Assembly (NCBI GenBank): GCA_027972325.1
Contig: JAPMOS010000029.1
Coordinates: 124,001-188,000 of the forward strand
Direction: 5' to 3'
Length of the DNA stretch: 64,000 nt
From: Paratrimastix pyriformis
Lineage: Eukaryota; Preaxostyla; Paratrimastigidae
A model generated the notes under the pieces. That model saw nothing but the letters and a program-made list of their open reading frames with translations. It ran no database searches and had not been told where the DNA came from. Each line of letters opens with the position of its first letter. Position 1 is the first letter of the stretch. Below are positions 441-12,400 of this stretch, one piece after another. The translations under genes and the position numbers were made by a program.

Positions 441-3400
441 ATGCAAGACGATGTCGGGAGCCTCATTAAGAACATCATCTACTACGCCATGGCGGGCGCT
501 GTTGGGCTGGTTGCGGCCTTGGCTCTGCTGCTTCTGCTGCTCTGCAAGGGCGACCGCAAGGAGCGGGTCCGTACGCACAGAAACCCCAGCCAGTCAGTTT
601 CGTGGTCGCACCGCCCCTCGTAGAAGATCATCCAGTCATCATCATCATCATCATCATCATCATCATCATCATCATTGAGTCGACAGCCGAAGTCGAGGCA
701 GGATAGGTGCTATAACTCCTTGTTCTTCATAATGAACACCACACAATGCAGAAAAATAAACCAATCCTAAAATGGTCACGACGGACAGCGTGTCCAATAC
801 GTGTCCATAAATCATAACAAAAATAGGAGAGAGAGGTCAAAGGGAGTCTAGAACTTTGGCCGAAGCCAAAAAATTAAACACGCACAGGAAGGGGGTGAGA
901 TGCGCGTGAACGGCCAGATGCGTTGCGCATCCGAATCTCCGAAAACCGTTGAGAGATTTCCGGGTCAACGGTCCATGATCGAACCGTGAAGTGACCCCAC
1001 TTTGGGCTTCGGAAGAGGTCCGAAAGGGGGTGGTAAAAGTAGCGGAGGCGAAAAAACAACAGGGAAAAAGTTGAAAAGTGCGGTCGGACCGTTCCCGCCC
1101 AATTCCGAGTACTTAAGGGGGCGCCCCGGACCAGCACAGTGCCTTCGTTTTGGAGTGGTGTTCTCCGTGACGAGTCAAGTGGCAGAGGCGGTTGGATGGC
1201 GTACGAACCCCGACAGTAGCAGCAGGAATAGGTGCGGGTGGGCCCGAAAGCGAGAAGGGAGCAGAAAATGAGGGAGAAACTTCGGCTGTCGACTCACTAT
1301 CCATCGTAGACTCAGGATAGCAGGCGACAGCCTCCGTCTTCGGCAGTCTAGGTGCTATCACATGCAGAGAGGGGAGAAAAGAACCCCAAGTGCAGCACAG
1401 CATCTAATCGGCTGGCCGCAAAAATCAGGGAAATGAAAAGTCCCAACATGGCATGCCAAGCCAGCATCTAGTCGGCCGGCGGCAGCAGGAGAAACAGAAA
1501 AACAGAAAGACAGACAAAAGGGCCTTGGAGGCCCCTCAAAAGCAGTCGAAAGCGGGCTGGCTCGACGATTCCTCCCCGGGCTCGTCGTTCTCTCCGTCGT
1601 CAGAGGGTCGGCTGCCCCCGCGGCGGCGCGGAGCGGCGGATGGCGCCCGGCTGGGGCGGCGGGTGGTGCGCGGGCGCCGGCGTGGCGCCGGCGTGCTGGT
1701 TGCATCGCCCGAAGGAGCCTCCTCGTCGTTGTCGTCGTCCTGAACGACCAGCGCACGATGCCTCCGCGGAGCCGCCGGACGGTGGCGCGGCGTGGCCGAC
1801 AGGGAGAGCGACGAGGCAGGCGAGGCCGGTGCGGGCGGCGCCGGCGGAAGTGCCGGGCGAACGGCCTGAACGAGGTCGGTCTCGGCGGACGGCGCGGCAG
1901 GTGCGCCCGCGACGGTGGCGTTGCGCTGGGGCGGCACCGTGGCGAACATGAGATCGGTGAAGTTGCTGTCGACGCCCGTCTGCACGTAGTGCTGCGCAAA
2001 CACTTTGGCCGAAGCCCATCGGCCCAGGTGCAGGATCTTGTCGGGCATGACCTCGCGCGCGATGGCCCAGCTGGCACCCCCACGTCGGAAGCCCCGCGCC
2101 GACAGGAGCGAGCGATCGCCCCCGCCGGCGACGATGACCTCGTTGAGGATGTGGCTGACGGTGGCCGGTTTGACGCCCTCGTAGGGCCGGCGCAGCTGGA
2201 TGATGACCCGCGACGGTCCTGGCGGGTCGGGCCGCATGGCCCCTGTGCGGCGGAGCCAACATTGGTAGCAGCCGACCGGGTCAAGGAGCGCATCGGCTGC
2301 GCGCCAGATGGTAACGGAGGCGCCCTGCGCGGTGTAGTCGTTCTTGAATCCCAGCAGGCAGACGACCAGCCGATCGGCGGCCGGCGGAATGGCCACCTGT
2401 GAGACAGTGGGCAGAGTCACGTCGGAGGGCCGCAGCAGCGCCAGGAAGGCCAGCAGGGCGACCAGCTTGGCGCGGAGGCGCTCGAGTGGGAGCGCCTCGT
2501 TCGGGCCCCACTGGTGGAAGAGCTCCACCAGCAGGGTGGGCGGCACAGGCAGCCCCTTCTGGACGGGCTGCGTGGTACGGCGCAGGCGAATGGCCTTGCG
2601 GAGGCGGCCGTAGAGGTGGTCGCGCGCCGGGGAGGGCACCCCAAGTGCGTCGTGGATCAGGTTGACCACGGTGGAGATGAGCGACAAGGTCGACCGGGGC
2701 CGGCAGCTGGCCCGGGTGGCCTCATCGGTGTAGTCGGCCAGAGCGCTCACAGGCATGGGCACCAGCGGGATGCCCCGGCCGGCGCAGAACCGGGCCAGGG
2801 CACGTAGCCGGTTGGTGAGGCTCTTCTCGGTGGTGGGCTTTACAGCAGCCGAGACAAGTAGCTGGCGACCTTCTATTGGTCTGGTACTGTCGACTCGCAC
2901 TTCTTTTTCCGCGAGCACTTCCTTTCCTCTCCCGAGCCAGCGAACCCCTTTTCTTATTCCACTTCATCAATCCTTCTTTCCTAACAATTGCTTCAAATAC
3001 ATTTGGCGATTGAATGTCACAACTCGAGTCACAACCTGCCGAGGGCCTTATGGATCGCGCCTTCCCTGAATTGGAATGGAAATCAATCCTATCGAACAAG
3101 GTGGGCACCGTCTACCTGCAGCGATTATGTCTTTCTCTTGGAGTTGACTATGAGTCGCCATCGAAGAAAACGACCCTCATCGCCCAGCTGGCTCCTCTGC
3201 TCGCAGAACGGCACTTCACACCTCAGAAGGTGTTGCAGATATTGAAACTCCAAAGTTGGATCGATATATCGGCGTCTGGATTCCAAGCACCACTCATCAC
3301 ACCACCGGCTTCCGCCGCCGGGTCCGGCCCGCTGGGGCAGCCCCGGGACCCGAGAAGAGCGACGGACCCACAGCCCCTCCAATGCAACTCGAAGTTGGCT

Positions 3401-9400: not shown

Positions 9401-12400
9401 CCCCCCACCCCCACGCAGCCTCTGGCAGTGGCTGGCCGAGGCGCAGACACGCCACTCGTTCACTCTGGCGCGGGGCCAGGGCGGGTGGCTGCTGACCAAC
9501 CACCTGATCCGGGGTGGCCGACTGTTCCCCGCTGCCGGGGCAGTGACCCCGAGCCCGCGCGCCGCAAGGAGCTGCGCCTGATGAAAGTTGTCGATGTCCT
9601 CCGCGCCATGCCCGCCGATGCCATCCAGGTCTACACCGACGGGTCCTTCGAGTGCGGCCCTGAGGGCCAGCTCCGCGGGGAGCGCCGCCGCGGTCCTGAT
9701 CCACCCCGACGGCCGCGCACTGTCGTTGCGCCGCACCCTCCAGTGGCCCACAAGCAACGCCCAGGCCGAGATCGAGGCCATCCGGCTGGCCATCGACCTC
9801 CTCGGCCGGGAGCGGGTCGGCCGAGACCGGTGCGTGCTGCTGCTGTCGGACAGCGAGTACGCCCTCGGTGCCCTGTGCCGCGCCACCTGCCTGACCCAGT
9901 CGCAGCAGGAGGTCCTCCGACTCCGGGACGAGCTGGTCTCCCGGTGGCCGCGCCTCCTCTGCCATCACGTGCCCTCCCACGTGGACGCGGTGGCCCCGGC
10001 TGCCCCCACCTGTGGGGCAATTTGCAGGCCGACCGGCTGGCCGGCGAGGCCGCGGCAGCCCGCCCCCACCGACAAGGCCGGCCCGCCACCCCCCATCCAA
10101 CAGGGCTTGGCCTGCCCGCCGGAGATGCCCTTCCGCCCCTCGGGCCCCAAGGACGCCCCGTTGCCGTACCCCACCCGACCCTTCACGCTCGCGGTGGCCC
10201 GGGGATTCTGCCAGGCCCTCCAGTGCGAGGAGGAGGCCCGCGGCTGGGCCCCCGGCGCAGCCGATTCTCCTCGGGGGTCACCCTGGACGGCCTCGAGCAA
10301 AGCTGGCCGCGCCCGCCTGGCGCCAGCAGGCCGCCCCGACTGGAAGGTGCGCCGGCTCGTCTGGCTGCTGTTCGGCACCTTCCCCACCCTGCAAACCATT
10401 CGGTGCCGATACGCGCGGAAGGCCTCAGCATCTGCCGGCGACGCCCCCCCGGTGGGGGTCACCTGCCCACTCTGCCACGGCGGCCCCGAGACCATGTCCC
10501 ACCTGCTGTCCGGCTGCGGCAGGTACCACGACTTCTACACGGCCCGCCACGACCGTGTGGTCCGCCGACTCTGGGCCTGGTTCGGCGGGCAACGCGACTG
10601 GGTCACGCGGCATTATATGGGCGTGTCGGCAACCAACTGTGCGCCCGCCTTCCCACCCACCCTGCTGGCCAAGCTCCCCGCCGCCCTCCGCGACGTGCAC
10701 CCCGACCTGGTGTTGCAGTCCCGTGGCTCTGACGGCACCTGGTGGCTGCTCGACGTGGCCATCACTGGCCAGACCCACGACTGGCCGGCGCGGGCGGCGG
10801 CCAAGGCAGCCCACTACGTCGCCCTCTGCCAGGCCGTCACGGAGGCCACCGGGCAGCCCTGCCGCGCGGTGCCGGTGATCTTGTCGGCCCGAGGGACCGT
10901 GCCCCGGGCCACATGCCAGGCCCTGTCGCGGCTGACACCGGCCGACCCCCCTGCCGCGCGAACCGACCTCCAGCGGGCCCTCTCCTCCGTCTCGACCCTT
11001 CTGGTTCGGGACGCCCTCGCGCTCATGACCATGCGCAACGGCGCAGCTGCCGCGGCGGGCCCCGCGCCCTGGCCACGCCGTAGCGGCCGCCCAGGGCCCA
11101 CGACCCGCCCCACCCGCCCCTGAGCACCCCTCCCCATCACCCACACCCATCACTGGGCGGCCCCGCCACCAGGCGGGCCCCCGGCCGGGAGGAGCCACCA
11201 TACGGGTCATTTGGCCCGGCCCCCCCCGGAGTGTAACGCATGGCGCGAAGGCGCGAGTAACCTTTCTTCTTGAACTTGTCGCCTGCGCCCTCGCAAATAC
11301 ACAGCATGTTCTCTCTCTGGGCGCTCCAATGGGCCGCTCCGGCCGCCCAGAAATCCTGAAGGCGCAGACGCGCCAGCTGAGGTTCTTCGTCGGCTCCGAG
11401 TGGCCGGAAGCAGCCGGGCGGAAGGCCCGCGGGTCCTGCGGCAGGAGCACGGGCCAGTCCACCGTCAGGGCCAGCAGCAGGGGCCACCAGGGCTGGCTCG
11501 GCCAGACCGGGGCCAGCAGGGTGCACTCGACCCCGGGCCCAGAGTGCTGCAGGTGGCGTAGTACGCGGTGGATCTGCGAAAAGGGGGGGTTGACCCAGCT
11601 GTTCTCGCCGGGCTCCCACCGGGCCGAAAACGTGTCGGCGCGCAGGGACTGCACATCGCGGTGGCGGCTCTCGTAGCGGGGCACCTGTCGCGTCGCGAAG
11701 GTGGCCATGCGGTCGATCGAGTGCGGGCCCCAGAGCCGGTCCAGCGAGCGGAACAGCGCCGGGTGGAGCATCCAGTCGCTGCGGTCGAAGTCCCGCGAGA
11801 GCTGGTCCGCAGTGGTATTCGTCACGCCCGCCACGTGCTCGGCCTGCAGGGTGATCCCGTGGCGCGCTGCAAGGGCGTGGATGGCCCGGGCGATCCCGTC
11901 CAGGGCCGGGTTGAGGCGGCCAAACCCGTTGAGGTGGGCCACCGTCGTCGCGTTGTCGACCTGGAAGAGCACCGTGCGGCCCCGCCAGGCCGGCGTCGCG
12001 GCCCAGATGCGCAGGGCGTTGAGCACGGCCATGCTCTCGCGCTGGTTGATGGGCGTCTCGCGCATGACGCCCGTCCAGGGGCCCTGGGCTGTCTCGTTGC
12101 GCTCGATCCAGCAGGCCCCCCAGCCGATGTCCGAGGCGTCCGTGGCGCAGGTCAGATCGGCCGGCGCCGGGAGCGGACAGGCCCCGTTCCAGCCTTCGAG
12201 GCCCTCCAGCCACCAGCGGAGGTCTCCCCGGGCCGGCTCGTCCAGCATCACGCAGCAGTGCCAGTTGGGGGCCGCTGCGACCACGCGGTAGACGTTGCGC
12301 AGGAGGAACTTGGCAGGGGCCACGGCCCGCGAGACGGACAGGCAGAGGCCCGCCACGTGGGCCACCCGACGCACGTGGGGCCGCGAGCAGCGCAGCAGCC

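Follow-up and report, generated by a model that had tools for sequence, protein, structure and literature searches.

Canonical long interspersed nuclear elements (LINEs) carry an apurinic-like endonuclease (APE), a restriction-like endonuclease (RLE), or both, as in Dualen, and GIY-YIG nucleases are found in Penelope elements (PMC4640811 and PMC5753468, in the portions available). A shrimp non-LTR (long terminal repeat) element with GIY-YIG was demonstrated by its own authors to be unlinked (PMC3849965, available portion). Here we describe a LINE from the free-living preaxostylan protist Paratrimastix pyriformis, contained in a 64,000-nt stretch of contig JAPMOS010000029.1 (positions 124,001 to 188,000, forward strand; hereafter the window). 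On the grounds of its anatomy and family, it is very probably an RLE-bearing LINE whose polyprotein also has an N-terminal SLX1-like GIY-YIG nuclease. The original prediction, made from the letters of the window, held this architecture to be one not known to be described. No description of a GIY-YIG domain in an RLE LINE was found in the literature searched, which was available in part and mostly excluded subscription journals, and this leaves a prior description possible.

The copy of the LINE in the window carries a GIY-YIG domain, a LINE reverse transcriptase (RT), an RNase H, and a CCHC motif with a restriction-like nuclease, all on the + strand and within one insertion, as predicted. The SLX1-like GIY-YIG domain lies at 6866–7140, exactly where it had been placed, and its Tyr, Tyr-x-Gly, Arg, QHNG, and Glu positions are kept, as seen with Pfam family PF01541, sequence alignment A4, and a structure model. 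The PF01541 match is sub-threshold in this copy (18.3 bits in open reading frame (ORF) 6536–8392; exactly at the 22.6-bit Pfam cut-off in a genome scan) and above the cut-off in copies L024 and L043. The RT (RVT_1) spans about 7890–8900 (predicted 7990–9060). It is frame-broken here, with pieces of 13.4 and 29.9 bits in the frames of 8346 and 8576, and open in L024, L043, and L045. RNase H lies downstream of the RT at about 9620–10060 (predicted 9610–10030), in the frame of 9585, with a PF00075 match of 23.6 bits (E 6.4e-5) that is below the family cut-off. The CCHC and PD-(D/E)xK region occupies 10464–10920 (predicted 10440–10830). Its CCHC motif, CPLC...ETMSHLLSGC followed by RHD (10464–10517), has C, T, H, C, and R columns that are invariant with three RLE LINEs, and the RLE itself (10518–10920) has PD at 10701–10706, K at 10803–10805, and Y at 10815–10817. 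ORFs 6536–8392, 7411–7992, 8346–8693, 8576–10732, and 9585–11123 distribute these domains over three frames. The window copy is therefore one insertion, as predicted, but not one reading frame, and the case for a single protein rests on related copies and families.

Open ORFs of individual copies and families were used unaltered. No window-family copy read on its coding strand is open from GIY-YIG to RLE (L012, L013, L016, L018, L023, and L025–L027 stand outside this count). L024, a divergent member of the window family at 93% identity, has a 983-aa ORF containing both GIY-YIG (27.5 bits) and RVT_1 (76.7 bits). L043, of family B, has a 1744-aa ORF with GIY-YIG (42.6 bits), RVT_1 (96.3 bits), RNase H-like motifs, CCHC, and PD...E...K...KY, and the 1519-aa ORF of L045 (family A2) contains GIY-YIG, RVT_1, RNase_H, CCHC, and PD...D...K. 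GIY-YIG (36.9 bits) and RVT_1 (80.4 bits) also share one ORF in L044, of family C. The PF00075 RNase H is matched in copy L017 (E 8.4e-10), L045 (4.2e-6), and L046 (2.4e-7). L043 and L045 can be aligned from GIY-YIG through RLE at 32% identity. Judged from these sequences, this genome has a clade of four or more such families, to which the element belongs; GIY-YIG precedes the RT in all of them, and wherever the sequence can be read the RT is followed by RNase H, CCHC, and RLE. The search for further copies thus yielded other families that repeat the domain order, and the feared split into separate insertions did not occur, with GIY-YIG and RT in one ORF in four families. Genome-wide, 10 GIY-YIG matches sit 1.1–1.9 kb upstream of a same-strand RT (from 106 GIY-YIG matches and the best 150 of 904 RT candidates); among the matches listed, none has the reverse order and none lies on the opposite strand within 3 kb. 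Window DNA from 6600 to 11200 has 52 genome matches (best 40 of 377 candidates scored), 12 of which span the whole interval at 97–100% identity. Across the four families, matches running from GIY-YIG to RLE number 12/52, 12/52, 6/49, and 10/41 (one from base 6), or 40 copies. A separate and AT-richer GIY-YIG ORF of 254 aa (L047; Pfam 1.9e-10) is seemingly repeated several dozen times without an adjoining RT match, and is possibly virus- or transposon-derived.

The GIY-YIG domain resembles SLX1 in both sequence and fold, which bears out the label it had been given. SLX1 chains are its best PDB sequence matches (E 1.4e-10 for L043, 1.3e-6 for L045, and 4.5e-4 for L024), and the PDB sequence matches consist of SLX1 and one UPF0213 protein. 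A model of window 6866–7294 (m9b94d1624060; mean predicted local distance difference test score, pLDDT, 72.0) matches Slx1 structure 6sei with E 9.8e-8. Foldseek returned seven matches to this model below 0.001, all of them Slx1 and none a homing-endonuclease-type GIY-YIG. Slx1 proteins are recognized by YLL, YxGxT, R, QHNG, GA..T, W, and Glu. Motifs of this type are present in alignment A4, in which 19 columns are invariant across five sequences from four families, including two Tyr, Gly, Arg, QHNG, and Glu. The Penelope GIY-YIG has been placed beside homing endonucleases and apart from Slx1 (PMC1564403, available portion), so the distinct GIY-YIG of the LINE looks like a separate capture.

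Affinities of the RT lie with R2. Its best PDB matches are R2 proteins (E 3.3e-22, 1.9e-29, and 2.3e-27 for three ORFs), followed by LINE-1 ORF2p, and none of the three ORFs matches telomerase at E 1 or less. In a 27-row RT tree without Penelope or Dualen sequences, the five rows with GIY-YIG group as a single clade (99/95) joined to three RLE-type LINEs (100/97), confirming the predicted grouping with LINEs as far as a tree without Penelope rows allows. Nine rows labelled APE or APE-like, three of the APE labels having been assigned by eye, fall apart from the GIY and RLE rows. Protein P0009, which branches near the GIY clade, has no GIY-YIG or APE match in Pfam, and nor does P0010, which is R2-like by PDB and has a CCHC-RLE region aligned to R2. 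The proposal that GIY-YIG takes the place of APE therefore stands as a description of architecture and is the weaker reading as history: these nearest RLE relatives show neither domain in Pfam, and gain of GIY-YIG by an RLE LINE reads better than an APE swap.

A C-terminal CCHC motif with a PD-(D/E)xK nuclease was found in the families, in family C (L044) by motif alone, and the RLE matches R2 structures. An A3 profile match was dominated by the RTs of full-length reference rows and was not used for the RLE, and a single-sequence PDB search with the RNase H-RLE ORF of L017 gave nothing useful. Ratios of nonsynonymous to synonymous substitution (dN/dS; NG86 method) between the window family and A2 are 0.22 for GIY-YIG (67 codons), 0.26 for RT, 0.20 for RNase H, and 0.23 for CCHC-RLE, with L024 representing the window family for GIY-YIG and RT and L017 for RNase H and RLE. 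The stretch after GIY-YIG has a ratio of 0.53. These ratios indicate that both nuclease domains are kept under purifying selection. Selection, fold, and recurrence in independent families together reject chance domain matches.

The boundaries of the insertion are defined by empty copies of its target. Uninterrupted copies of a DIRS element match window 2500–2872 and 11318–11900 with abutting coordinates (for example, C462:122020–122392 and C462:122392–122974). Since these copies abut across the LINE, the complete insertion is 2873–11317 (8445 nt, + strand), nested in the DIRS element with a target-site duplication of 0–1 bp; the bounds first proposed, 3002–11293, are superseded. The insertion ends in a 3′ untranslated region with a short (TC)n tail (11124–11317, + strand), and this 3′ end is common to the copies examined (junctions of L009–L038). 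The first 40 match rows all extend to it from variable 5′ starts. A single 3′ end shared by copies that are truncated to different extents at the 5′ side is the signature of target-primed reverse transcription. The (TC)n tail varies in length between copies and the right flanks differ, so that targets are varied and strict target-site specificity is not seen. Such specificity is a trait of most RLE LINE clades, though not of HERO. Both junctions were obtained at 23 of 30 loci, the 5′ junction being set at the first position that matches the window copy. At 21 of the 23, the longest repeat between the flanks is 1–6 nt, similar to a mismatched-pair control (mean 3.8), and the two longer repeats (11 and 14 nt) fall within simple repeats. 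L035 sits in a DIRS RT gene, likewise without target duplication. At L038 (109–3407), a 5′ piece corresponding to window 2879–4231 lies inverted beside the truncated 3′ remainder, an arrangement like that of L1 twin priming. The LINE family is probably recently active.

The presence of two nucleases in one polyprotein raises the prospect of a division of labour between them, to which we give about even chances. The RLE would nick the first strand and prime reverse transcription at the 3′ tail. The SLX1-like domain would then cut the branched intermediate, free the second strand, and complete the insertion. SLX1-type domains are known for branched DNA and not for intact duplex. How LINE integration is completed, its second half, has been called very poorly understood, and second-strand cleavage in R2 acts on a 4-way branched intermediate, modelled after a template jump, where R2's own RLE cuts (PMC6895275, available portion). 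An SLX1-like domain would be suited to a 4-way branched substrate of this kind.

Four alternatives were weighed against this. It is conceivable, although fairly doubtful, that, with the same anatomy, GIY-YIG contributes elsewhere (to RNA or DNA processing, to competition with other elements, or to DNA binding) and does no cutting during integration. A second nuclease is unnecessary in R2, and many GIY-YIG fusions may mirror domain mobility rather than a functional link (PMC1564403, available portion). However, the catalytic residues of the domain are invariant in five sequences from four families, and its dN/dS is like that of the RT. We consider it unlikely that, within the same anatomy, the roles are exchanged, with GIY-YIG making the first nick and choosing the target while the RLE cleaves the second strand or binds DNA. 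Both the RT and the RLE are R2-like, and in R2 the first nick is made by the RLE; SLX1-type domains, moreover, are known for branched and not for intact DNA. Set against these objections are the retention of both active sites, the ability of a GIY-YIG-bearing Penelope protein to cleave and extend target strands (PMC11167929, available portion), and that of the R2 RLE to cleave the second strand (PMC6895275, available portion). That the element is Penelope-like and has an unusual RT, as the presence of GIY-YIG might suggest, is highly improbable: the RT is best matched by R2 (1.9e-29), followed by L1, and telomerase is not matched at E 1 or less; the element also has RNase H, CCHC, and RLE, and its GIY-YIG is of the Slx1 type. 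Craig et al. 2021 are said to have reported some Penelope-like elements that bear GIY-YIG N-terminally. Penelope identity is unsupported by the PDB matches of the RT, and the RT tree held no Penelope-like sequence. Equally improbable are two neighbouring insertions, a GIY-YIG gene or Penelope fragment beside a LINE, which the different frames of the window copy and the unlinked shrimp case (PMC3849965, available portion) might favour but which are ruled out, provided that the open ORFs did not arise in assembly, by the shared GIY-YIG and RT frames of L024, L043, L044, and L045, the 40 spanning copies in four families, and the end-to-end alignment of L043 and L045 at 32%.

Several observations weigh against a dual-nuclease LINE with divided labour. 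The window copy is frame-broken, with GIY-YIG, RT start, later RT, RNase H, and RLE in three frames, and L024 is alone among eight window-family ORFs scanned in joining GIY-YIG and RT in one frame. L045 GIY-YIG scores 21.4 bits, slightly below the Pfam cut-off of 22.6; Pfam RNase H is not detected in the L043 ORF, which has motifs only (the near copy L046 has RNase_H at 31.4 bits); and RNase H, CCHC, and PD in L044 are seen as motifs that run on in other frames. The RLE is covered by no Pfam family, and the L043 C-terminus, searched as a single sequence against PDB, gave no match. The dN/dS ratios come from one family pair at dS 0.8–1.2 with mixed copies (L024 and L017), and the ratio is 0.31 with the window copy's own GIY-YIG. 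In the RT tree, L024 and P0011 carry a warning of unusual composition. Full-architecture examples all come from one genome, and protein searches (best 8000 candidates each) found GIY-YIG and RT together only in Paratrimastix. A scan of prokaryote genomes gave no GIY-YIG and RT relatives, and 52 viral-contig loci with SLX1-like GIY-YIG had no RT match in the stretches examined, where three control loci did match. In R2 the second strand is cleaved by the element's own RLE, and that role therefore need not fall to GIY-YIG; the missing target-site duplication is not diagnostic, because RLE LINEs range from blunt ends and small deletions to duplications of 13 bp or more (PMC6895275, available portion).

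The 5′ ends of the copies offer a further view of integration. A sequence of ~375 nt with tRNA-like A and B boxes, recognized by eye, lies upstream of the LINE start in L023, L025, and L031, and occurs also in L048–L051; ARAGORN and Rfam, at gathering scores, gave no match to it. Its 3′ end (..CTTACTTTCG) abuts 5′-truncated LINEs of three families at differing positions, in 15 of 39 cases by coordinates, and two further joins (L050 and L051) were seen by sequence. The pattern suggests that template jumps have landed repeatedly on a single small RNA. A rival reading is a shared 5′ leader or a target preference. The leader enters because, at the full-length copies C179/L048 and C311/L049, the tRNA-headed sequence lies some distance upstream, and at L045, also full-length, it stands about 190 bp ahead of the stretch given. 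Taken whole, the account in which RLE LINEs captured an SLX1-type nuclease, divided the labour, became a second independent dual-nuclease lineage beside Dualen, and end many insertions by a template jump onto one tRNA-headed small RNA is tentative, and somewhat short of an even prospect.

The region before GIY-YIG (3014–6865, + strand) is coding in ORFs of several frames, with a Q/A/G/P repeat tract at about 3730–4250. Annotated protein P0002 opens with the same MSQLES sequence and continues into GIY-YIG. An N-terminal zinc-finger/Myb DNA-binding domain is a trait of R2-type RLE LINEs; this frame-broken region matches no significant Pfam family, and Rfam has no family in the LINE at E 1 or less. 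At 4680–5390, several frames carry motifs reminiscent of ubiquitin-specific proteases (their Cys box, zinc site, and His box); the likeness was noted by eye, has no statistical support in Pfam or PDB searches, and was not adopted. Two short repeats (..FYPG..W.SF.S..EAE.A..) at 5790–5960 and 6055–6225, and at 5021–6001 (− strand) in L045, are common to the window and A2 families. Lying upstream of GIY-YIG, they resemble by eye the RNase H N-terminal/caulimovirus VI fold and have no Pfam match. The host DIRS element is interrupted into a left part (1358–2872, − strand) and a right part (11318–14593, − strand). The left part includes ORF 1536–2963, which is cut by the LINE, is repeated uninterrupted elsewhere, and has no match in a Pfam scan. 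The right part, at 11318–13868, encodes an RT (PF00078, E 5.2e-11) and a putative Dam-type methylase (PF05869, E 4.2e-5, below its cut-off). This DIRS-type element is repeated at 40 or more places with 93–100% identity.

R2, R4, NeSL/Utopia, HERO, and CRE likewise have a LINE RT, a C-terminal CCHC motif and PD-(D/E)xK RLE, and 5′ truncation to one 3′ end. R2-group elements mostly use one target site, whereas the targets of the Paratrimastix LINE are varied. GIY-YIG is absent from the domains described for R2-group and other RLE LINEs, in the sources available, and present here, and the RNase H of oomycete Utopia lies upstream of the RT (PMC4640811, available portion), in contrast to the downstream position in Paratrimastix. 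Penelope-like elements similarly combine RT and GIY-YIG in one ORF, but their RT is telomerase-like, their GIY-YIG is of homing-endonuclease type and C-terminal in the canonical form, and the available portions of PMC11167929, PMC3846280, and PMC1564403 do not mention RLE or RNase H. Dualen/RandI has two nucleases in one LINE, with RNase H also reported, and its position indicates that APE LINEs arose through replacement of RLE by APE (PMC4640811, available portion). The second nuclease of Dualen is an APE, whereas the Paratrimastix LINE has an SLX1-like GIY-YIG N-terminal of the RT and no APE detected (PF03372 and PF14529 were absent from the L024, L043, L044, and L045 ORFs and from the N-terminal ORFs scanned). 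The likeness to SLX1 of the Slx1-Slx4 nuclease lies in GIY-YIG sequence motifs and predicted fold; unlike SLX1, the domain is fused to a retrotransposon polyprotein, and Pfam finds no RING or Slx4 domain in these ORFs. In R2 one RLE performs both cuts, and the steps are therefore hard to separate. With two unrelated nucleases in one protein, both under selection, each step could be switched off by point mutation, and the pairing suggests that one enzyme may start the insertion and the other help finish it. The Paratrimastix LINE would thus be a further RLE LINE with a second nuclease, parallel to Dualen, and would widen the canonical LINE nucleases beyond the APE or/and RLE of the Repbase definition (PMC5753468, available portion).

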